Made by a program: the position numbers and the translations under genes
Source: a virus
DNA length: 41,987 nt
IMG/VR virus record: IMGVR_UViG_3300034220_000012
Location: 1-41,987 of that record
Strand: one strand, 5' to 3'
The notes under the pieces: generated by a model
Seen by the model: only the letters and a program-made list of their open reading frames with translations
What the model was told of the DNA's origin: nothing
Databases searched by the model: none
Shown here: positions 4,760-19,933 of the stretch, piece after piece
How the letters are laid out: each line of letters opens with the position of its first letter
How positions within the stretch are numbered: the stretch's first letter is position 1

Positions 4760-5866
4760 TCATTTCCTCTTTTCCTTCAATGGGTTAAGTGCGACCACCG
4801 AACCAGCTACCGGACTATTCCGGGGTTCTGCGGCGATCAGCGCGTTGCGAATGTCCTCTTCATGCACATGGGCGTAGCGCGAGGTCGTCTCGATCCGGGT
4901 GTGCCCCAGCATCTTCTGCGCGACCTTGATGTTCGATCCGCGCGTGATCCGGCTGCCGGCGGTGTGGCGCAGATCGTGAAACCGGAAGTCCTCGATCCCG
5001 GCGGCAGTCAGGGCGCGCGACCAGCGGCGCTTCCAGCCCTCCTCGCTGAACGGATAGCGCTCGCCCTTCTGGCGCAGCGGCCGGTCGCCGCGCGGCGGGC
5101 TTGGGCGCTCGCACTCATAGGTGAACACCTGGGCCGCAACCTTGGGCCGGTTGGCGATGATCGCCACCATGCGCGGCGTGAGCGGGAACTTGTGCCAGAC
5201 GTTGCCCTTGGTCAGTACCTCCGCCCAGCCCTTCCGCAGATCGACCTTGCTCCACAGGAGCGTGATCACGGCACCCCGGCGCTGCCCGGATAGCAAGGCG
5301 AACTCGGCGACGGCGGCAAGGTCGGTGTCCAGATGCCCGAACAGCCGCGTCTCCTCTTCGGCGGACAACTCGCGGATGCGCTCTTGCGGTTCGCGCAGGA
5401 ACAGCTTGGTCCAGCCGATCACCGGCACCGAATAGGCGTCCTCCAGGTGACGCACGATCCGGCGCAGCACCTGCATTTCGCGGTTGACCGTCGCGGCCGA
5501 TACCAGCCGGTCGCTGTTGCGGGCCGTCTCGGCGCGGCGCTTGGCGATGTAGGCGTTGAGGTCCACGGCGGTCACGTCGACGATCATCTTGCCGGGGCCG
5601 AGCCGCTGCGCCAGCCGCAGAAGCTGGCCCTTCAAGGTGTTGCCGCGCTCGAACTGCCCCTTGTGATCCCAATAGAGGCTGCACGCGTCGTCTATCGTGA
5701 TCGACGGCTTGACCTTGGTCCCCAGCGCTACCTCGGTTCGCCGGCCACGCTCGTAGCGTTCCGCGTCCCGCTTGGCCTGGCACCCGGTAGAGCCGTGGAA
5801 CCGTTGCCCCCGGAACTGGAAGTCATAGTGCCAGAAGCGGCTGTTCCGGGGCTTGTAGATCGTCAT
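4760..5866 (-). CDS. int: Tyrosine-recombinase integrase
   Basis: Protein of 368 aa, typical for a phage tyrosine recombinase. After a small N-terminal arm-binding/SAM-like region (about 55-160), the catalytic domain carries Arg196 (SGQRRGAV), Lys220 (TKGNVWHKF), the HDLRHT box (His297, Arg300), His322 (MLGHTRIETT) and the nucleophile Tyr331 (SRYAHV). All core residues are intact. It catalyses integration and, with the excisionase, excision at the adjacent attP (4705-4745), only 15 bp beyond its stop. Its start ATG overlaps the stop of the excisionase gene (ATGA), so it is the last gene of the PL operon before attP. Confidence 0.95.
   Translation of the reverse strand: MTIYKPRNSRFWHYDFQFRGQRFHGSTGCQAKRDAERYERGRRTEVALGTKVKPSITIDDACSLYWDHKGQFERGNTLKGQLLRLAQRLGPGKMIVDVTAVDLNAYIAKRRAETARNSDRLVSAATVNREMQVLRRIVRHLEDAYSVPVIGWTKLFLREPQERIRELSAEEETRLFGHLDTDLAAVAEFALLSGQRRGAVITLLWSKVDLRKGWAEVLTKGNVWHKFPLTPRMVAIIANRPKVAAQVFTYECERPSPPRGDRPLRQKGERYPFSEEGWKRRWSRALTAAGIEDFRFHDLRHTAGSRITRGSNIKVAQKMLGHTRIETTSRYAHVHEEDIRNALIAAEPRNSPVAGSVVALNPLKEKRK
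4812..4824 (+). repeat. Right copy of the 13-bp direct repeat flanking attP
   Basis: GGACTATTCCGGG, identical to 4592-4604. This copy lies inside the 3' end of int, as arm sites of compact attP regions often do. It is a candidate integrase arm-binding site by position. Confidence 0.5.
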
Positions 5867-6999: not shown

Positions 7000-8018
7000 C
7001 GTACCGTCTCCTCGCCCACGGTGCCGGGGGATGCGAGGAGGGCGAGTTCCTCCTCCGCGAACGCCACCAGCATGAGGGCGCGATAGTGATCTCCGCCCCA
7101 TCGCGTGAGAAAGTCCTGTGCGCGTTTGATCCTAGCAACCGAGGTAGGTTCTTCGTCCTCCCCCACCCCGCCTACGGGATGAGGCGCGGGCGAGGAGGCG
7201 GCGAGGAGGCGGGTTACTTCGTCGCATTCCGGCATGTGCTTGCCGGGATTGCACCAGTCGCCGCACATAATCCGCTGGTATGCCTCCAAACGGGCGCGTG
7301 GCACCAGCACGTACCCTTCCGGCACCCCCAAATGCCCGCTGTCGGCGTGGTCGAGGGGCACCAGTGGCCCCTCCGCTTTCGGTGCCGCGTCAACGGCGCG
7401 CTGCCACTGTGCGTCGGTGATGTCGGGAGCCTCGGGCGGCGGCGATGCGGGTAGACGGTCGAGGGCAAGCGCCTTTACCAGCGCGTCGATAGCGCAACTG
7501 GCAATCCAGCTTTCCGGGTCGCTGAACAGGCGCACTTCGTTGTCGGCTATGGCGTTCCTAAGCGGTGCCCAAGCCGTCTGGTCGGGGATGGCGTCGAGCA
7601 GCAACTGTCTTGCCTGCCGATCAAGGTCCGCCTCCACGAGCCCCGCGTCCGCTCCCGCCGGTGGGGAAGCTGGGGTGCGGGCATCCGCCAGCCCACGCTC
7701 ATACCCAAGTTCTTCTGCGGCGATCAGCGCCTGACTATGGCGAGCGACCGCAGCATGGTAAGCCTTGGCGGCATCAGTACATTCGTCGGCGACTGCCTGA
7801 ATAGCACGGTCCGCCTCCGCCTCGGCGTCACGAAGAGCGCGTAGTATCCTGCCCTCCGCGCCAGCCTTGATCTGGCAAGCCGGGGCGCTGTCTTCGTTCG
7901 CGCCGAAATGCAGCCGAGCGCGCCGCTCATCGGTGAACACGTCGTCACAGTGGAAGCAGCGCCATTCCGCCCGCAGCGCATCGGAGGCGCTATCGCTGGT
8001 GGGAGTCGGGCTATTCAT
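6996..8018 (-). CDS. Multidomain Ala-rich hypothetical protein, 340 aa
   Basis: The ATG at 8016-8018 overlaps the TAG of the HNH gene (ATGAATAG); an upstream ATG at 8108 would run about 100 bp into that gene. Near the N-terminus is a C2H2-like element (WRCFHCDDVFTDERRARLHF). A long Ala-rich coiled-coil-like part follows (about 60-150), then a C-terminal region with PEGYVLVPRARLEAY, which resembles the short 'VPREPTxxMxxA' tail domains of many phage hypotheticals. It could be a scaffold for several small functions. No enzyme motif is seen. Confidence 0.6.
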   Translation of the reverse strand: MNSPTPTSDSASDALRAEWRCFHCDDVFTDERRARLHFGANEDSAPACQIKAGAEGRILRALRDAEAEADRAIQAVADECTDAAKAYHAAVARHSQALIAAEELGYERGLADARTPASPPAGADAGLVEADLDRQARQLLLDAIPDQTAWAPLRNAIADNEVRLFSDPESWIASCAIDALVKALALDRLPASPPPEAPDITDAQWQRAVDAAPKAEGPLVPLDHADSGHLGVPEGYVLVPRARLEAYQRIMCGDWCNPGKHMPECDEVTRLLAASSPAPHPVGGVGEDEEPTSVARIKRAQDFLTRWGGDHYRALMLVAFAEEELALLASPGTVGEETVR

Positions 8019-8664
8019 GGCTGGCGTCCTGTGTGAGGATTTGGCGGACGGCGACTGTGGCGTCGCTCCACAGGGTTCCTCGTTTGATTTTACGAATGGC
8101 TGCTTCATCCACGCCGAACTCTCGGGCGAGTACCCGAATTACTTCACCAGCTTGGGCACGCTGGTATATTGCGATGGCCTTCTCGACCGTCAGCTTAGCG
8201 CCCGGCACCGCCTCACCAGTGAGATGAGTGCCGTGACGGCGCTTGTCCGCCATGTTGTCGGCTCGGCTTTTCCATGCCAGATTCGCCGGCGCGGTATGCG
8301 TCTTGTCGCCGTCTAGGTGCGCGGCTTCGGCGTCCTCGGTTGGCTCGCCGTGGAAGGCGCGGCAGACGATCCGATGCACTTCAAACGTGCGCCCTTTGTT
8401 GCCCGCATAGAGGCGGACGAAAGGATAGCCGTTGCGGTTCAAGCACTGTGTCAGGCGCCGAGATGGAACACGCACCACTTGCTGCCGGCCGCGATTGTCT
8501 CGCTCGAACGTCCTAGCGATCGAGAACACTTCGCCGCGATCATCGACGCAGTAACGACCCTCGTATTCAGGGACCCAGCGCTGCGCCTTGCTCAGACCCG
8601 CCGCGATGCGGGCTGCGTCATCGGGCACCTCCCGCGCCAGCTCGTCCGCTCGGGGGTCGGTCAT
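8011..8664 (-). CDS. HNH homing-type endonuclease with NUMOD4 and HTH domains
   Basis: A 217-aa protein with the free-standing HNH layout. The N-terminal NUMOD4-like motif (WVPEYEGRYCVDDRGEVFSI, from residue 30) is followed by the HNH_3 core HRIVCRAF...AAHLDGDKTHTAPANLAW (His97, His116, Asp118, Asn128). A C-terminal helix-turn-helix follows (KLTVEKAIAIYQRAQ ... LAREFGVDEAAIRKI). It probably makes a nick or break at a specific DNA site and may spread itself among related phages. Start ATG 8662-8664 overlaps the upstream stop (ATGA). It is embedded in the early operon with no sign of a surrounding intron. Confidence 0.85.
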   Translation of the reverse strand: MTDPRADELAREVPDDAARIAAGLSKAQRWVPEYEGRYCVDDRGEVFSIARTFERDNRGRQQVVRVPSRRLTQCLNRNGYPFVRLYAGNKGRTFEVHRIVCRAFHGEPTEDAEAAHLDGDKTHTAPANLAWKSRADNMADKRRHGTHLTGEAVPGAKLTVEKAIAIYQRAQAGEVIRVLAREFGVDEAAIRKIKRGTLWSDATVAVRQILTQDASHE

Positions 8665-8969
8665 CGGGCGGCCTCGATCCGCTGGAGACGACAAACGCTC
8701 TCGTACAGCGTCCATGCGACCTTCTTGACGGGCTCCAGTGACATCGCGCGTTCGGCGTCAGTGCCGGCCGGCTTTCGAAAGTCCATAATCGCACGATTGA
8801 TGTCGGCAAAGTCGCGGAACGGCTCGCCCTCACGTTGCCCGCGCGACGCCATCGCGACCATGTAGAGCACGCCGAGGCTACGCACGGTTGCCTTGCCGCT
8901 CTCGATCTCGGCCTGGATCATCAGTAGCGGATAGTCCGGCTCTTGCCCCCGCAGATCGGCGCTACCCAC
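8661..8969 (-). CDS. Hypothetical 102-aa helical protein
   Basis: The GTG at 8967-8969 overlaps the TAG of the upstream gene (GTGGGTAG); the open frame further upstream runs through that gene. The sequence is helical and soluble (PDYPLLMIQAEIESGKATVRSLGVLYMVAMA; AWTLYESVCRLQRI). No family is recognised. It follows the NinB and HNH genes in the recombination part of the operon. Confidence 0.6.
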   Translation of the reverse strand: MGSADLRGQEPDYPLLMIQAEIESGKATVRSLGVLYMVAMASRGQREGEPFRDFADINRAIMDFRKPAGTDAERAMSLEPVKKVAWTLYESVCRLQRIEAAR

Positions 8970-10543: not shown

Positions 10544-11041
10544 CTATTTCCTCCGGATGGTGAGAGACGGGCGCGGATCATCGATCCGAAGCCAATTCGG
10601 GAGCGCGGGCGTGTCCACCGAGAACGCGGCCTTGATCGCGTCCATTGACGGCTTCCACGACTGCACGGCGTATTCGTGCGGGACCGCCGCCGGGTCGTTG
10701 ACGACCAGCTTGGGGGCGGTTTCGCGAAGGGTGATCGTCGCTTCCGGGAGCGGCAGCTTGTCCAGTCCGGCGCACTTCATCACCGTGGCGATGGCTTCCC
10801 GCTGGGCGGCGATACGGGCGTCGCACCGATCCCGGCGGACCTTGCGGGCCTCCATCTGCTCGGTCAGCGCGGCGCGGTCGCCTTCCTCCGCTTCGATGCG
10901 ATGCAGCAACCGACGTACCAGTTCGAACGCGTCCGTCTCGCCTTCCAACGCGTCGATCCAGCCGCGCTCGTCGTCCTCGAATTGGTCGGCAAGCATGGTG
11001 CGCAGCGCGGTGATCTGCACCAGGGTCAGGTCAGTACGCAT
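10544..11041 (-). CDS. Siphovirus Gp157-like protein
   Basis: A 165-aa protein with a long N-terminal coiled coil (FELVRRLLHRIEAEEGDRAALTEQ ... CDARIAAQREAIATVM). The typical Gp157 end follows (LDKLPLPEATITLRETAPKLVVNDPAAVPHEY). Gp157 proteins occur next to phage ssDNA-binding proteins, as here. In a Streptococcus thermophilus phage they were linked to host or phage resistance, but the molecular role is unclear. Start ATG 11039-11041, 11 nt inside the previous gene. Confidence 0.8.
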   Translation of the reverse strand: MRTDLTLVQITALRTMLADQFEDDERGWIDALEGETDAFELVRRLLHRIEAEEGDRAALTEQMEARKVRRDRCDARIAAQREAIATVMKCAGLDKLPLPEATITLRETAPKLVVNDPAAVPHEYAVQSWKPSMDAIKAAFSVDTPALPNWLRIDDPRPSLTIRRK

Positions 11042-11213
11042 GGCGGTATCCCATCCGATGCTCGAGGGCGCGCAGGCGGCGCAGGGCCTCCCGGCGGGTG
11101 CGGGCGAATGCGACGTGCGCGGGGAAGAGGGACTTGACCGGCTCGGCATACCAGCCGCCGTCACGCTCGAAGGTGACGACCGCCGGGGTGTCGTTGGCGA
11201 GCGGACGGGTCAC
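11031..11213 (-). CDS. HicB-like small protein, 60 aa
   Basis: The GTG at 11211-11213 overlaps the stop of the 22-aa ORF (GTGA). AVVTFERDGGWYAEPVKSLFPAHVAFARTRREALRRLRAL resembles the partial RNase-H-like fold of HicB antitoxins (beta-beta, then 'T..EAl..l..al'). No HicA partner is seen, so it may be a stand-alone regulator or an anti-toxin decoy. Family assignment is tentative. Confidence 0.55.
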   Translation of the reverse strand: MTRPLANDTPAVVTFERDGGWYAEPVKSLFPAHVAFARTRREALRRLRALEHRMGYRHAY

Positions 11214-12892: not shown

Positions 12893-12920
12893 TATGTACC
12901 CGGACGGGGTACGCTGTCAA
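12893..12920 (-). promoter_or_regulatory. Leftward early promoter PL
   Basis: On the minus strand a perfect TTGACA (12915-12920) is followed after 16 bp by TACATA (12893-12898). It is the best sigma-70-like promoter in the immunity region and points at the 178-aa gene starting at 12842. Operator O1 occupies the spacer and the first part of the -10. Confidence 0.75.
12896..12912. promoter_or_regulatory. Operator O1 (GTACCC-N5-GGGTAC palindrome)
   Basis: GTACCCGGACGGGGTAC, identical to O3 at 13602-13618 and centred in the PL spacer. A repressor bound here would block PL. The palindrome and its exact repetition are seen directly; which protein binds is inferred. Confidence 0.8.
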
Positions 12921-12939
12921 CACACCGACGAAAATAAAT

Positions 12940-12956
12940 CTACCCTGTAGGGGTAC
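12940..12956. promoter_or_regulatory. Operator O2 (CTACCC-N5-GGGTAC)
   Basis: CTACCCTGTAGGGGTAC has the same half-sites and 5-bp spacer as O1/O3, with one half-site base changed. It lies 19 bp upstream of the PL -35, where it could support cooperative binding or a second weak leftward promoter (TAGATT lies just past it on the minus strand). Confidence 0.7.
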
Positions 12957-13029
12957 ATGCCGTCATCTATTGCGATGTAGGAAAATTCTCGCCACATAGA
13001 ACGAACGCGGAACACGGGAGTCGGCAGGC

Positions 13030-13329
13030 GTGAGTCAGAACGTGCTAATGCGAGAACCCGCCTGCGATGTAGGGTGCCGTACGTGCCTGTTGGAGTGCGC
13101 AATCCTTCCCCAGCGACTCGCGTGGTGGGCCAGCGAGGTCGAGCGACTGCTACGTGAACGTCCGGCTTCGACTAGCCGGCGATATCCACACTGGCGCGAT
13201 CACTTACGAGCGTGCGAAGCCGCATGTGCAGACCTGAAGCAACAGCTCGCGGCCACTCGGAATAAGGCAGACCCGCTGGCAGCGTCTGTTGCGCGGATGC
13301 GATCATTTCCGCCAGCTCATCCTCATTAG
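13030..13329 (+). CDS. Doubtful 99-aa ORF, converging with and overlapping the repressor gene
   Basis: GTG at 13030 with GGGAG 8-12 nt upstream. The translation has a Cys-rich start (CDVGCRTCLLEC) and a charged helix with several Trp (WWASEVERLLRERP ... HWRDHLRACEAACADLKQQL). It overlaps the 3' end of the repressor gene by 158 bp on the opposite strand, which argues against it. It is the only candidate gene in the stretch 12957-13171; otherwise I see nothing there beyond the promoter and operators. Confidence 0.3.
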   Translation: MSQNVLMREPACDVGCRTCLLECAILPQRLAWWASEVERLLRERPASTSRRYPHWRDHLRACEAACADLKQQLAATRNKADPLAASVARMRSFPPAHPH

Positions 13330-13585
13330 GGAGCGCGCCCGGCGGAGCGATCAAGAGGTGCGGTGCTATACCAACCGCATCGCCGATCTTTTCAAGCCAA
13401 TCGCCGGTGAGAGGGCGTTCATCGCGCTCCAGCTTGACCAGCATGCTCCTGGACGTGCCGATCGCGGACGCAAGCGCTTCCTGGGTCAACCCAGCCGCTT
13501 TCCGGTACATTGCGATGTTGTTCGGCAGCACGTCGTCGGGATGACGAAGAGGCCTTAGCGGCTCAAGGCCCCCAATAGTACACAT
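13172..13585 (-). CDS. XRE-family repressor (CI-like, short)
   Basis: A protein of 137 aa if started at ATG 13583-13585, or 119 aa from GTG 13529-13531. An XRE helix-turn-helix is clear: NIAMYRKAAGLTQEALASAIGTSRSMLVKLERDERP, followed by WLEKIGDAVGIAPHLLI. There is no LexA/S24 peptidase domain, so RecA-driven self-cleavage is not expected and induction must work differently. It is divergent from the Cro-like gene across operator O3 and reads away from it, as an immunity repressor should. The ATG choice gives an almost leaderless message and puts the start inside a 25-bp inverted repeat; the GTG start better matches usual XRE N-termini but has no clear ribosome site. Confidence 0.8.
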   Translation of the reverse strand: MCTIGGLEPLRPLRHPDDVLPNNIAMYRKAAGLTQEALASAIGTSRSMLVKLERDERPLTGDWLEKIGDAVGIAPHLLIAPPGALPNEDELAEMIASAQQTLPAGLPYSEWPRAVASGLHMRLRTLVSDRASVDIAG

Positions 13586-13592
13586 TGGGGGC
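13568..13592. repeat. 25-bp inverted repeat over the repressor start
   Basis: GCCCCCAAT (13568-13576) and ATTGGGGGC (13584-13592) are perfect 9-bp arms around a 7-base loop. The repressor ATG (13583-13585, minus strand) lies at the loop edge. It could be an RNA hairpin controlling repressor translation or a second operator type. Confidence 0.6.
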
Positions 13593-13621
13593 TTGTAAGA
13601 TGTACCCGGACGGGGTACGTA
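13593..13621 (+). promoter_or_regulatory. Rightward early promoter PR
   Basis: TTGTAA (13593-13598), a 17-bp spacer and TACGTA (13616-13621). The predicted start falls at about 13628, the first base of the Cro-like ATG, so the message may be leaderless. O3 fills the spacer and overlaps the -10 by 3 bp, exactly as O1 does at PL. Confidence 0.6.
13602..13618. promoter_or_regulatory. Operator O3 (GTACCC-N5-GGGTAC palindrome)
   Basis: GTACCCGGACGGGGTAC between the divergent repressor and Cro-like genes, identical to O1. On the minus strand TTGCAC and TACATC flank it at 18-bp spacing, a possible repressor promoter (PRM), so one operator may control both directions. Confidence 0.8.
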
Positions 13622-13627
13622 AGTGCA

Positions 13628-13834
13628 ATGACGCTTCGAGATCACCTTAGCGGCTCCAAAGAGACCGTCGTCGCATTCGCGGAGCGGCTCGGCGAGAGCC
13701 CCAACACGATCCGCAAGATCGTATATGGACAGCGAACGCCATCGGCCAAGCTCGCGGCGAAGATCGTCGCCGCGACAGACGGCGGTGTTGGTATCGCTGA
13801 TCTGGTCGTTGCTCCGGTGGAGCGGGCGGCATGA
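13628..13834 (+). CDS. Cro-like HTH regulator, 68 aa
   Basis: A small protein dominated by one helix-turn-helix (ETVVAFAERLGESPNTIRKIVYGQRTPSAKLAAKIVAATDG). Its size and its position opposite the repressor, across O3, fit a Cro or YdaS-type regulator that turns off the lysogenic program. No ribosome-binding site precedes the ATG, and the predicted transcript begins at or next to it. It is the first gene of the rightward early operon; its stop overlaps the next ATG (ATGA). Confidence 0.8.
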   Translation: MTLRDHLSGSKETVVAFAERLGESPNTIRKIVYGQRTPSAKLAAKIVAATDGGVGIADLVVAPVERAA

Positions 13835-14814
13835 GCGTCTATTTCGTTCAGCGCGCCGACGGCGGCCCGATCAAGATCGGTTGCACGGCGTTTCTTGACC
13901 AGCGGATGGCGCAACTCGCCGTCGACACGAAGGCCAAGCTGGTGCTGCTCGCATCGGCGCCGGGTAGCTTTCGCGACGAGGGGCGACTGCATCGTCAGTT
14001 CGCCCCCCATCGCGTCGAGGGCGAGTGGTTCGCCGACTGCGCCGATATTCGCGCCGCCATCGGCCACATCCAGCGGAAAGGCATCTTGCCTCCGCCCGTC
14101 GAGGAAGACCGTGAGGTCGTCATGGCGGCTCGCTATCTCTCCGGCGAGACATTGAACGCGATCGGTGTTGACTTTGGGATGACGCGCGAGCGGGTCCGTC
14201 AAATTCTTCGCGCGACCAATATTCCCTCGCTGGGGCTGCGCAAGGATCACCGGAGGCAGGCGGCACCCGTTACCGATGCCGAGCACGAGATTGCGGCAGC
14301 CTATGCCGCTGGCGATGTCACGCCCGCCGCGCTCTGTGAGCGGTACGATATCACGGCGGCGCGGCTGAACATCATCCTTCGCCGGACACAGACCAAGCGC
14401 TACGGTGTGCGCTATTGGCTCACTCGCGCTGACGACGCTGAGCGGACCGCCAAAGTCGTAGAGCTTTATCAGGCCGGGCTTCCCTCGCCCCAAATCGCGG
14501 AGGTTGTCGGGCTCAGTCATCAGACCGCCGTCTACCGCTACCTCGCTAAAGCCGGAATGGCTCCCGAGCGACTTAGGCGGAGTGCATCCCGCCCGGACAC
14601 TGACTCGGTGGTGTCCCTTTATCGCGGCGGCCTGACGCTCGACGCCATCGCCGCTCGCTTCGGCGTGTCGGATAAGATGATTCACGGGATTGTCCGGCGG
14701 GTCGGGTGCCTGCGTACTCGGAAAGAGAACGAAGCCATTCGGGTCGCTGCGGTTCGCGCCGCAAACCTTCGCCGCAAGGGCGCCTCCCCAAGCGAGCCGC
14801 AGGTCGCAGCATGA
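13831..14814 (+). CDS. GIY-YIG (T5orf172/MUG113-like) domain fused to about four HTH units
   Basis: A 327-aa protein. Residues 2-75 (VYFVQRADGGPIKIGCTAFL ... Arg25 ... ASAPGSFRDEGRLHRQF ... GEWF) match the GIY-YIG-superfamily T5orf172/MUG113 domain, with the conserved Arg and Glu50. The rest contains repeated helix-turn-helix units at about 95-130 (IGVDFGMTRERVRQILRATNIP), 150-185, 205-243 (IAEVVGLSHQTAVYRYLAKAGM) and 257-295 (IAARFGVSDKMIHGIVRRVG), separated by short linkers. It is second in the rightward operon, joined to cro by ATGA. It could be a site-specific nuclease or a regulator that uses a repeated reader; activity is inferred. Confidence 0.75.
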   Translation: MSVYFVQRADGGPIKIGCTAFLDQRMAQLAVDTKAKLVLLASAPGSFRDEGRLHRQFAPHRVEGEWFADCADIRAAIGHIQRKGILPPPVEEDREVVMAARYLSGETLNAIGVDFGMTRERVRQILRATNIPSLGLRKDHRRQAAPVTDAEHEIAAAYAAGDVTPAALCERYDITAARLNIILRRTQTKRYGVRYWLTRADDAERTAKVVELYQAGLPSPQIAEVVGLSHQTAVYRYLAKAGMAPERLRRSASRPDTDSVVSLYRGGLTLDAIAARFGVSDKMIHGIVRRVGCLRTRKENEAIRVAAVRAANLRRKGASPSEPQVAA

Positions 14815-14945
14815 GCCCGAGAGACGAAAAGCCCCTGCTGGCCACCCCCGCCCCTCACTGGACCGACCGCATACCGACGTGGCTGTTCATCACCGCCGGG
14901 GTCGCGGCTGCGCTGGGGATGCTGGCGATAGGGTGGTGGGGGTGA
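14811..14945 (+). CDS. 44-aa single-TM protein
   Basis: ATG at 14811 overlaps the previous stop (ATGA); TGA 14943-14945. A polar N-terminus is followed by one membrane helix (WLFITAGVAAALGMLAIGWW). Function is unknown; it could act on the host membrane early in infection. Confidence 0.55.
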   Translation: MSPRDEKPLLATPAPHWTDRIPTWLFITAGVAAALGMLAIGWWG

Positions 14946-15142: not shown

Positions 15143-15637
15143 ATGCTGCTCGCGCTCGACACATGGGTGCCGATCCTCGATGGCGACCCCGCAGCTGCCG
15201 CGATGTACGAGCGGCATTATTCCAGCGCCCGCAGCCGTTCCCGTAGGCGCGCGCGCGGCACTCTGCTCATCATGGGGCCGGGCTACAAGCTGTTGCTCAT
15301 GACGCCGTGCCGTCGCGCGCTGTTCGCCTGGCGCAAGCAAAAGTTCGTGCCGGGTGTCGAGTGCGCGATCTTCCGCAACGAGGGCGCAGGCCTGTCGTCG
15401 GACTTGATCCGCGCGGCCGATGCCATTGCCGACGCGCGTTGGCCGGGCGCGCGGCATTACACCTACGTCGATCCGGCGGCGGTCGCCAATAGTAATGCCG
15501 GTCGGTGCTTCGTGCGCGCCGACTGGCGATACGTCCGCATGGGTGAGAGCAAATACTCGCCACGGCTGCGCACTTCTCGCGGGCTGTTCGTGTTGGAGCG
15601 CAATCACCTCGCCTCCCCCCTGGCGTCCGCAGCATGA
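15143..15637 (+). CDS. Conserved phage protein, 164 aa
   Basis: ATG 15143 directly follows the previous stop (TAGATG). Recognisable blocks are ERHYSSARSRSRRRA, IMGPGYKLLLMT, RRALFAWRKQK, GVECAIFRNEGAGLSSDLI and GARHYTYVDPAAVANSNAGR, ending CFVRADWRYVRMG. This pattern occurs in many phages as a hypothetical protein with a GNAT-like layout (the last blocks resemble an acetyltransferase core). Family and activity are not established. Its place in the early operon suggests a regulatory or host-modifying role. Confidence 0.7.
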   Translation: MLLALDTWVPILDGDPAAAAMYERHYSSARSRSRRRARGTLLIMGPGYKLLLMTPCRRALFAWRKQKFVPGVECAIFRNEGAGLSSDLIRAADAIADARWPGARHYTYVDPAAVANSNAGRCFVRADWRYVRMGESKYSPRLRTSRGLFVLERNHLASPLASAA

Positions 15638-16289: not shown

Positions 16290-17062
16290 CCACCTCCACC
16301 ATCACCGACGCGGGGCGGGGAGAAGCGCCTCTCGCGATGACGCGGGTGCCGAGTGCTGCTCAGATCGAACAGCGCCGCAACGCCGCACAAGCCCCGCGCT
16401 TCGGCAAGCATCGGCCGGTGCCCGACGACTTCGCGGAGCACATGGGCGAGCCCCTCACGGACCTGCGCAAGAGGTATGCGACCGGCGGTGGTACCATCCT
16501 TCGCTGGCTCGCCAAGTGCGGCACACCCCGCCCGGAGAACAAGCGCGGCCCGCGCATGAACACGCAGACGCACGAGCGCATTCGACAAGCGATCGCGGAT
16601 GGGCTGACCACCAAGCAAGCGGCTGAGCTCATCGGCTATTCGGTCTGCGCGATCACCCGCGCGGCCAGGAAGCACGGGCTCGGGACGTGGGCCAAGACCA
16701 TCATTCCCGGCGAGGTCACGTATCGCGAGCGTGTGGCGTCGGAAAAGCGCGAGCGTGCCCTAGCGCGCAAGGTGGGGCGGATCGTCGCCCCGGCGAAGGC
16801 GCAAACGCCCAAGTCGGGGCGTATCTGGGCTGCCAATCGTGGGCACGAACGCATCGTGACCCAGCGCTACGATCGTGACACGAGCCCGGACGGCGAGGCG
16901 GCGGACTATTTGCGGCGCTTCGGGCCGGTCTACCGATGCAATAGCGTCGGCCGACCGGATATCGCGGGGAAGTTCTGGCGGCGCGGTTCGGCGGTGCTGA
17001 CCAGCGCCGAGCTGATCGAGCGCGCGGACTATCTGCGCTCGCGTGAGGCTGTGGCGGCGTGA
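16286..17062 (+). CDS. DNA-binding protein with central HTH, 258 aa
   Basis: GTG start in a GTGA overlap with the previous stop. A basic N-terminal region with DDFAEHMGEPLTDLRKRYATGGGTILRWLAKCG looks like one helix-turn-helix. A second is TTKQAAELIGYSVCAITRAARKHGLG. A basic linker follows, and a C-terminal part with DYLRRFGPVYRCNSVGR. It probably recognises DNA during early rightward expression or replication; no family is named. Confidence 0.6.
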   Translation: MTTSTITDAGRGEAPLAMTRVPSAAQIEQRRNAAQAPRFGKHRPVPDDFAEHMGEPLTDLRKRYATGGGTILRWLAKCGTPRPENKRGPRMNTQTHERIRQAIADGLTTKQAAELIGYSVCAITRAARKHGLGTWAKTIIPGEVTYRERVASEKRERALARKVGRIVAPAKAQTPKSGRIWAANRGHERIVTQRYDRDTSPDGEAADYLRRFGPVYRCNSVGRPDIAGKFWRRGSAVLTSAELIERADYLRSREAVAA

Positions 17063-17511
17063 GGGCGGCTCTTGCCTTTGCCCAGGACGACGCGGCGTTC
17101 CTGACCTTCCATGTGGACGGGGTGCCGGTCGCCAAAGGCCGCGCGCGCGCCACGACGATCGGGGGAATGGCTCGCCTCTACACCCCCGGCAAGACTCGCG
17201 CCTATGAGGACAGGATACGGTGCGCCGCTGCGATGGCCAGGGGAGAGCGCCCGCCCTTCCAAGGTGAGGTCACGCTTACGGTCACCGCTCTAGTCGCAAT
17301 CCCTGCGTCATTCTCGAAGCGGAAGCGCGCGAACGCCGTCGCCGGGATCATCCGTCCCACGACGCGGCCGGACGCCGACAATTACGCGAAGGCGGCGCTC
17401 GATGGCTGCAATGGCATTCTGTTCCGCGACGACGCTCAGGTCACCGACTTGATCGTCCGCAAGCGGTACGCCGCGGAGCCTCGCCTTGTCATCACCATGG
17501 AGGCTTTGTGA
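17059..17511 (+). CDS. rusA: RusA-family Holliday-junction resolvase
   Basis: A 150-aa protein with the RusA fold signature VDGVPVAKGRARAT near the start and the catalytic block TRPDADNYAKAALDGCNGIL followed by FRDDAQVTDL. The three Asp of PDADN and DD are intact. RusA cuts four-way junctions formed by replication and recombination. GTG start within a GTGA overlap. A second, unrelated junction- or branch-processing candidate (the HNH protein beside ninB) is encoded in the leftward operon. Confidence 0.9.
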   Translation: MRAALAFAQDDAAFLTFHVDGVPVAKGRARATTIGGMARLYTPGKTRAYEDRIRCAAAMARGERPPFQGEVTLTVTALVAIPASFSKRKRANAVAGIIRPTTRPDADNYAKAALDGCNGILFRDDAQVTDLIVRKRYAAEPRLVITMEAL

Positions 17512-18303: not shown

Positions 18304-18852
18304 GTGCTGATCTGGGAAGCCCTCGCAGCGGCTCGGATCGTGCTGCGATCGCATGCGCCTGGCGAGCACCGCGCGACCTGTCCGGCGTGCTCCCACACCC
18401 GCCGGAAGAAGACCGAGCGGTGCCTTGCGGTGCTGATCGACGAAGATGGATGGGCGGCATTCTGCCATCATTGCCAATGGATTGGAGGGCATCGTGGAGC
18501 TGAAGAAGCCGCACGCGGATTGGCTGGACGGACGTGGGATCGACCCGACCCTGGCCGCAAAATTAGGGCTTCACACCGTGCAGCAAGGTGGCCGTCATTG
18601 GCTGGCGGTGCCCTACCCGGAGCAGGGGCGCGTGGTGAATCACAAGTACCGGGTCGTCTCGGAGTCGCATGCCTATCGGATGGACGACGACGCGCCGCTG
18701 ACCCTGTGGAATCACGACGTGCTCCTGGACGGATCGCTGGATCAGCAGCCGCTGATCGTAACCGAGGGGGAGTGGGATGCGCTCACGATCCTGACCGCCG
18801 GCAAGCGCCGGGTCGTCTCCATTCCGAACGGCGCCCCGCAGAAGTCGAGTGA
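18304..18852 (+). CDS. Primase zinc-ribbon reading frame (separated by frame from the helicase)
   Basis: GTG at 18304 follows the previous stop directly. Residues 1-66 are the N-terminal primase zinc ribbon: CPAC (Cys26, Cys29) and FCHHCQW (Cys54, Cys57), with the usual REKTERCLAVL-like strand between. The frame stays open to 18852, but after about residue 66 its translation is an Arg/Pro-rich shadow of the helicase gene. The functional continuation (KKPHADWLDGRG...) is in the +1 frame. Either the ribbon is a separate product with a meaningless tail, or a +1 frameshift or a sequence error joins the two frames. Confidence 0.65.
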   Translation: MLIWEALAAARIVLRSHAPGEHRATCPACSHTRRKKTERCLAVLIDEDGWAAFCHHCQWIGGHRGAEEAARGLAGRTWDRPDPGRKIRASHRAARWPSLAGGALPGAGARGESQVPGRLGVACLSDGRRRAADPVESRRAPGRIAGSAAADRNRGGVGCAHDPDRRQAPGRLHSERRPAEVE

Positions 18853-19933
18853 CGATGCCGGGCTGACCGAGGGCAAGCGGTACGCCTGGTATTGGCGCTG
18901 CGAAGCCCTGCTGGCCAAGGTCGGCAAGGTGATCCTGTGCGTCGATGCCGATGCGCCAGGGCAGGCCCTCGCCGCCGATCTGTGCCGGCTATTCGGGCCT
19001 GAGCGGTGCTATTTCGTCGACTACCCCGAGGGCTGTAAGGACGCGGGCGACGTCGCCGCCCTGGTCGGTCACGACGCGCTGGTCCGCATGCTTGACGAAG
19101 CGAAGCCCTATCCGATCAAGGGGCTGTACACGCTCGCCGACTTCCCGGAGCGGGGTGAAGTCACCGCGCTTTCGACCGGCATCCTCGCGCTCGACGACAT
19201 GATGGCAATCGTCCCCGGCACTCTCACGGTATTCACCGGCTACGCCAATATGGGCAAGTCGAGTGTGATGAATGCCATCGCGGGGCACCTCATCCGGCAC
19301 AATATCCCGCTATGCATCGCCAGCTTCGAGACGGACGTGAAGCCGATTCTTCGCGACCATCTGCGTGCGGCCGTCGCGGCATGCTCGCTGCACGAAGCCC
19401 GAACCCGCGACATGCGCGCGGTCGATGCGCTGATCGAGGACAATGTGAGGCTCATCACGCAGCTCGTCGACGAGGACGACGAGATGGATTTGGACTTCTT
19501 CCTGGATCTGTGTCGCACGGCGGTGATCCGCGATGGCGTCAAGGTGGTGATCCTCGATCCGTGGAATGAGCTGGAGCACAAGCGCCGCCGCGACGAGACC
19601 GAGACGGACTATATCAGCCGCGCGCTACGTGCGATCAAACGCTTCGCCAAGGCGTATCAGGTCGCATTCTGGGTGGTGGCGCATCCGACCAAGCCGCAGG
19701 AAGGCAAGGCCCGAGTCCCCGGGCTGTACGACATCAGCGGCTCGGCGAATTGGGCGAATAAGGCGGATTACGGGCTGACCTACCACCGCGCGCGGCCCGA
19801 CGAAAATTGTGCCGAGATGCGCGTCACCAAGGTCCGCATGGGCTTGCCCGGCAAGAAGGGCAGCGTCTTCGTGACGTACGATCATCGCGACAGCAGCTTC
19901 CGTGTCGACGACAGCGCGGCGGCTTTCGCATGA
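18494..19933 (+). CDS. T7 gp4-type primase-helicase (TOPRIM plus DnaB-like helicase)
   Basis: GTG at 18494 with GGAGGG just upstream; 479 aa. N-terminal part: a TOPRIM domain with VTEGEWDAL (Glu about 91), CVDADAPGQALA (Asp151, Asp153) and GCKDAGD. C-terminal part: a RecA-like hexameric helicase with Walker A GYANMGKS (249-256), Walker B VVILDPWNEL, FWVVAHPTKP and SANWANKADYGL. It would unwind the fork and make primers. The zinc ribbon needed for template recognition is encoded just upstream in another frame (18304). It is the last gene of the rightward early operon. Confidence 0.9.
   Translation: MELKKPHADWLDGRGIDPTLAAKLGLHTVQQGGRHWLAVPYPEQGRVVNHKYRVVSESHAYRMDDDAPLTLWNHDVLLDGSLDQQPLIVTEGEWDALTILTAGKRRVVSIPNGAPQKSSDDAGLTEGKRYAWYWRCEALLAKVGKVILCVDADAPGQALAADLCRLFGPERCYFVDYPEGCKDAGDVAALVGHDALVRMLDEAKPYPIKGLYTLADFPERGEVTALSTGILALDDMMAIVPGTLTVFTGYANMGKSSVMNAIAGHLIRHNIPLCIASFETDVKPILRDHLRAAVAACSLHEARTRDMRAVDALIEDNVRLITQLVDEDDEMDLDFFLDLCRTAVIRDGVKVVILDPWNELEHKRRRDETETDYISRALRAIKRFAKAYQVAFWVVAHPTKPQEGKARVPGLYDISGSANWANKADYGLTYHRARPDENCAEMRVTKVRMGLPGKKGSVFVTYDHRDSSFRVDDSAAAFA

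Follow-up and report, generated by a model that had tools for sequence, protein, structure and literature searches.

A putative GIY-YIG nuclease with four helix-turn-helix units overlaps cro in the immunity region of a temperate phage

The window, by which we mean the whole 41,987-bp virus record that was analysed, encodes a tyrosine integrase (4760-5866) and carries the features of a cI-cro immunity region, namely a divergent repressor, a cro-like gene and operator repeats. The repressor ORF lies on the minus strand (13172-13645; HTH_3, 8.5e-10), its real start probably being internal, and the cro-like gene lies on the plus strand (13628-13834; 68 aa; HTH_3, 6.4e-7; phrog_35 repressor, 3e-10). 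The operator-like palindrome TACCCNNNNGGGGTAC, to which no strand is assigned, occurs in three copies, one between repressor and cro (13600-13619) and two beyond the repressor gene on the side away from cro (12894-12913 and 12938-12957). With up to two mismatches it gave eight strand matches in the window, six of them at these three sites, against 1.6 expected, and none of 100 shuffles gave eight.

Behind cro lies an open frame with an ATG start on the plus strand (13831-14814; 327 aa), encoding a GIY-YIG (MUG113/T5orf172) domain followed by four helix-turn-helix (HTH) units. An earlier note on this DNA had claimed that the gene is coupled directly to cro, and the start codon does overlap the cro stop by 4 bp, in an ATGA at 13831-13834. 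A second ATGA joins the end of the gene to a 44-aa ORF on the plus strand (14811-14945), probably part of the same operon, for which PHROGs gave no match. The early operon runs on toward a toprim/DnaB-type primase-helicase (18446-19933) and includes an ORF (15143-15637) that belongs to the unnamed phrog_24928, has no Pfam match and presumably resembles the Mu Mom protein; about 250 bp of that region share 72% DNA identity with a Pseudanabaena phage. PHROGs also assigned an HNH endonuclease (8011-8715, minus strand), a Mu Gam-like end-protection protein (10544-11164, minus strand) and a RusA-like resolvase (17059-17511, plus strand).

The N-terminal domain (residues 1-83; 13831-14079, plus strand) had been described as T5orf172/MUG113-like, and Pfam bears this out with matches to MUG113 (1.1e-9, residues 15-77, 39.2 bits against a cut-off of 22.3) and T5orf172 (1e-4, 23.2 bits against a cut-off of 20). 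Y4, K15, G17, R25, E50, H54 and E65-W66-F67 are invariant in an alignment of 15 sequences, mostly from named phages and plasmids, and in a separate alignment of 25. The residues that the earlier note had proposed as catalytic, Arg25 and Glu50, are unchanged throughout the alignments of 15, 19 and 25 sequences. The tyrosine of YIG is replaced by Lys15 (K-I-G), likewise invariant across the aligned family members and, to judge from the sequences, a trait of the MUG113/T5orf172 branch rather than decay. In ICP1 Odn the T5orf172 domain cuts DNA, and the E180A change of its conserved glutamate abolishes cutting (sections of PMC8263062). Comparison with the closest relative, L296, gave a dN/dS of about 0.10 for the GIY domain (approximate, as dS exceeds 1), suggesting roughly estimated but strong purifying selection.

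The structure of the whole protein was predicted by AlphaFold2 from 19 sequences, with a mean pLDDT of 88.6 and a pTM of 0.44, the latter meaning that the relative placement of the domains is not defined. The model shows a GIY-YIG-like fold at residues 1-83 and four tri-helical HTHs, in keeping with the architecture originally proposed, and residues 1-90 modelled alone reached a pLDDT of 96.7. With VIA-align, the top five rows for residues 1-90 were Slx1 (two entries, Z 5.7 and 4.7), EF2693, BH0048 and UvrC, EF2693 and BH0048 being proteins that we take to be of the GIY-YIG type, and I-TevI was the seventh row (Z 3.4), the Z-scores being modest (5.7 at best). Foldseek against the PDB returned no match at E <= 0.001 for either the whole model or the GIY domain, and searching PDB sequences with a profile of the GIY domain found no relative (best row 0.08).

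At least three, probably four, HTH units had been counted from the translation, and exactly four are predicted by AlphaFold2, all on the plus strand: unit 1 (residues 94-128; 14110-14214), unit 2 (residues 149-185; 14275-14385), unit 3 (residues 200-240; 14428-14550, also recognised by Pfam) and unit 4 (residues 257-291; 14599-14703). The Pfam HTH matches were to Sigma70_r4 (2e-10, residues 97-127), HTH_23 (9e-11), HTH_7 and HTH_28. The one match of the window to PADLOC defence families was mad1 (9e-4), over residues 268-289, which lie in unit 4. Within the protein the units share 7-14 identities per approximately 41 residues, with shuffle z-scores of 4.9-7.1 for four pairs, 1.5 for units 1 and 3 and 0.0 for units 2 and 3. 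In their residues the units are alike as HTHs, yet a recent duplication is excluded; the description of the units as repeated thus stands for their HTH character, but the repeats are unequal, unit 1 resembling region 4.2 of sigma-70. Against L296, unit 1 had a dN/dS of 0.14, and units 2, 3 and 4 had values of 0.30, 0.40 and 0.35 (all rough, dS exceeding 1), which suggests that the nuclease domain and unit 1 are held, and that the later units drift.

The likeness of unit 1 to sigma-70 lies in its fold and in a TRER[VI]RQ helix. The predicted recognition helix, T118-R-E-R-V-R-Q124 (14182-14202, plus strand), aligns to T583-Q589 of sigma-70, so that T118, R119, E120, R121, R123 and Q124 correspond to T583, R584, E585, R586, R588 and Q589, and all six are invariant in 10 of 10 family members. 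The six are among the E. coli RpoD residues that PMC4943231 (seen in part) lists as interacting with the -35 box; the -35-contact positions E574, E575 and K593 are not kept in unit 1. Sigma70_r4, MUG113 and T5orf172 were each found by Pfam in all ten members. When the PDB was searched by sequence with the family that bears unit 1, the best 60 of 88 matches were all sigma-type factors, and VIA-align rows for region 4 of sigma-A/70 cover residues 90-132 at approximately 28-36% identity and include the DNA complexes 3n97 and 1rio. Unlike a sigma factor, unit 1 is fused to a nuclease and lacks the other sigma regions; Pfam gave no row at E <= 1 for sigma region 2, which reads the -10 element and binds core polymerase.

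A ten-member profile run against 397 genomes of one bacterial family had matches in 382, which is no count of relatives, since approximately ten of the genomes listed match in the nuclease part. Most of the listed matches cover the first-HTH stretch only, typically in open frames of approximately 670-720 aa, and the five such RpoD-sized loci that were read are all RpoD region 4, with TLEEVGQQF.VTRERIRQIEAKALRKL. A search for the first-HTH helix led to 17 loci, of which 16 had an ORF to read (L378 had none); eight ORFs have a GIY domain in front, and the other eight are phage HTH proteins without a nuclease that nevertheless carry TRER[VI]RQ, so that the helix need not mean -35 binding. Given this, and given matching contact residues alongside the loss of E574, E575 and K593, binding of a -35-like hexamer by unit 1 is a reasoned guess. 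The same sigma-4-like helix stands before a different, unassigned C-terminal part in L373 (2455-3309) and L377 (5159-6013).

Searches of viral contigs and genome contigs with the window protein alone gave no relative, and phage and plasmid tblastn matches span at most 38% of it, nearly always the GIY domain only. Relatives surfaced after a DNA pattern search for LHxxF...R..GEWF followed by a three-sequence alignment search; this search for the same domain order, which the earlier note had called for, recovered proteins with one to five HTH units and conserved catalytic residues. Units in the relatives were counted by eye on the alignment, aided by Pfam, and those of the window protein were taken from the structural model. 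The closest relative, L296, is 63% identical and has four HTHs. L269 has five, L284 three, and L270 four, with an additional unit in front and the last unit missing; L369, added by the first-HTH-helix search, has two, and L316/L317 (one protein), L320, L325, L326 and L330 have one each. L262, L269, L271, L272 and L281 are one contig, and for the proteins of L371, L374, L375 and L380 the starts were read at L270, L316, L317 and L320. From these alignments unit 1 appears as the element common to the group, with the remaining units coming and going and evolving faster. For this reason the long or repetitive DNA site envisaged earlier is likelier to be composite than repetitive, the first half of that idea surviving in that a tandem reader probably needs a long site.

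Two further proteins with HTH units were seen in passing. In L327 (4995-6488) one open frame of 498 aa combines MUG113, an HTH_3-like unit, a sigma-4-like HTH and a match to C5 DNA methylase (1.6e-5). It may be a fusion of nuclease and methyltransferase, and its start overlaps a short upstream ORF by 1 bp. The 252-aa gp458 of Caulobacter phage C1 (L367:1965-2723) has approximately five tandem HTHs and no enzyme domain.

The position behind cro recurs well beyond the window. We compared two sets of MUG113 genes, one of 48 distinct genes chosen solely by the sequence of the nuclease domain (set A) and a broader one (set B), after dropping repeated domains and loci whose upstream DNA was shorter than 1300 bp. 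In set A, 38 of the 48 genes begin in an ATGA shared with the end of a preceding ORF at least 45 aa long, the other ten being without such coupling, against 12 of 84 in set B (Fisher p 1.5e-13, a value that is only indicative, as set A members partly share ancestry). Likewise, when the longest divergent ORF was taken from the 1.6 kb upstream of each gene, it was a Peptidase_S24 protein in 24/48 of set A and 4/74 of set B, and matched HTH_3 in 17/48 and 6/74, respectively; the scan covered all 48 loci of set A and, for set B, 74 of 78 (six of 84 have no such ORF, and four repeats or second ORFs were dropped). Among the coupled upstream genes scanned (37, being the window and 36 of the 38 coupled loci), YdaS was matched by 12, HTH_3 by 9, P22_Cro by 8 and other HTH families by some, these categories overlapping. 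In 22 hand-picked loci, kept out of these statistics, the overlap is 4 bp in 20 and 1 bp in two. MUG113 genes of other phages occupy different positions, as in HK106, where the gene follows the lysis genes. No link to DNA methylation is claimed, a methyltransferase lying within 3.5 kb downstream in 14 of 45 loci against 6 of 44 (p 0.07).

An isolated phage shows the same arrangement: in Rhizobium phage RHph_I1_23 the MUG113 gene EVC28_053, annotated as a hypothetical protein, overlaps by 4 bp an annotated 'cro-like repressor protein', with a divergent HTH regulator upstream. Its seat is like that in the window, but no HTH was found in its C-terminal part. L273 and P0002 are also cro-coupled MUG113 proteins without a recognised HTH, and many such exist.

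The genes around the nuclease gene change while it stays. The window and L296 are similar in DNA, at 73%, from 13825, which is 6 bp ahead of the start codon, to 14472; cI, cro and the genes directly behind the nuclease gene gave no DNA match. The nuclease genes of L269 and L270 are 58% identical, and their cI and cro are without match at E <= 1e-6. In the compared pairs cro and repressor are unrelated, and the nuclease gene keeps its seat as the surrounding immunity genes change.

A constant catalytic domain, a modular reader and a seat in the cro operon together point to an aimed nuclease at lytic onset. We consider the chances about even that the product of the gene, co-translated with cro, serves this temperate phage as a sequence-specific GIY-YIG endonuclease or nickase early in the lytic cycle. 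Its N-terminal domain would cut DNA, and unit 1 would dock through its sigma-70 region 4.2-like helix, probably on a -35-like (TTGACA-type) hexamer, with units 2-4 reading adjacent DNA and so lengthening the site. The nuclease would be produced alongside cro within the first minutes and may act on foreign DNA, be it that of a rival phage, a prophage, a satellite or a host locus, rather than on the genome of its own phage, much as Odn serves ICP1. A bolder form of this proposal, which we offer tentatively and regard as doubtful, is a promoter-reading nuclease that borrows the -35-reading head of sigma-70 and would find phage or host promoters irrespective of the gene behind them; extra HTHs would tune the site, and the protein, made with cro, would cut or block the early promoters of rivals as the immunity region is exchanged around it.

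The alternative that fares best, though in itself unlikely, is a homing-type selfish endonuclease gene bordering the immunity region, which, by having co-infecting phages cut, would spread itself together with the neighbouring immunity genes. The homology between window and L296 is gene-sized, beginning at 13825 with flanks that do not match, and the sections of PMC10448857 consulted treat T5orf172/MUG113 genes whose readers are modular and repeated as putative homing endonuclease genes at exchange boundaries; on these two grounds homing stays, on our analysis, a serious rival. The variation in HTH number from one to five, and the variable presence of the gene among primase-helicase relatives, would fit as well. 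However, homing requires homologous flanks and a shared target; flanks are unrelated in the compared pairs, and no pair of intact and empty target sites was found among the compared loci. Moreover, the gene mostly occupies one and the same position, joined by an identical 4-bp overlap, and a fixed seat with unrelated flanks suggests a job in the cro operon. Homing of T5orf172/MUG113 genes is itself experimentally unverified, according to the same sections of PMC10448857.

We think it improbable that the protein is a transcription regulator of the lytic switch, its HTH array binding promoters through the sigma-4-like unit and its GIY-YIG domain a weak or idle passenger. The seat behind cro and the sigma-4-like unit would suit such a role, as would the resemblance of the tandem HTHs to phrog_323 D5-like regulators (7e-7) and to Cbp1 (model NF040595, matching five of ten family members), and I-TevI is both endonuclease and repressor (PMC10448857, in part). 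A pure regulator is nonetheless less likely because conservation is highest in the catalytic domain, and because cro-coupled members without a recognised HTH exist, the constant element being the GIY domain and not the reader. A nickase for replication or packaging, directed at the DNA of the phage itself, is very improbable: the early operon does run to the primase-helicase, and p19 of Myxococcus phage Mx8, a MUG113 fusion called 'replication initiation protein' in one record, adjoins a DnaC-like gene, but a MUG113 match occurs only in L132 and L148 of 52 primase-helicase loci (many of them partial), the gene is variable and missing from most near relatives by helicase, and separate replication genes are present.

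An aimed, cro-coupled nuclease would have partial counterparts among known systems. I-TevI of phage T4 is an intron-encoded enzyme with the canonical GIY-YIG motif, a Zn-finger linker and an HTH-containing C-terminal domain. The window protein shares with it the order of a GIY-YIG domain followed by an HTH-bearing DNA-binding part, arranged as 'beads on a string'. Arrays of small HTHs are likewise found in T5 D5-like proteins (phrog_323), Cbp1 and C1 gp458, the last having no nuclease domain, unlike the window protein. The homing-type endonucleases ICP1 gp174 and Helene (sections of PMC10448857) have the same nuclease domain, modular, repeated readers of variable number, and genes at exchange boundaries. 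Their readers, however, are zinc-finger-like (CapR/DUF723/DUF4397), whereas the window protein has HTHs of the sigma-4/HTH_23 type, with no Pfam match to DUF723 or DUF4397 at E <= 1, and a fixed seat behind cro. ICP1 Odn (gp88) also joins a T5orf172 domain, with the catalytic Arg and Glu kept, to a specific reader and is a phage-beneficial, aimed, origin-directed nuclease (PMC8263062, in part), but its reader is RepA_N and its nuclease C-terminal, whereas the window protein has an N-terminal nuclease and an HTH array without a Pfam match to RepA_N at E <= 1.

The earlier note knew of no described system with this architecture. That has to be narrowed, for T5orf172 domains with repeated readers or RepA_N are published (PMC10448857 and PMC8263062, both seen in part). 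It holds for the version with an HTH/sigma-4 reader and the seat behind cro, which we found undescribed in the literature covered, mostly outside subscription papers. A GIY-YIG domain with repeated modular readers is thus already known; what is new, on the literature covered, is a reader of the HTH/sigma-4 type and the position of the gene behind cro.

The natural series of one, two, three, four and five HTH units makes the dependence of cutting specificity on reader length measurable, and that a sigma-factor helix could steer a nuclease is a testable idea. The classical lysis-lysogeny switch gains a gene, the partner of cro in a group of temperate phages being a probable nuclease. If the nuclease aids the exchange of immunity regions, this would bear on the mosaicism of those regions.
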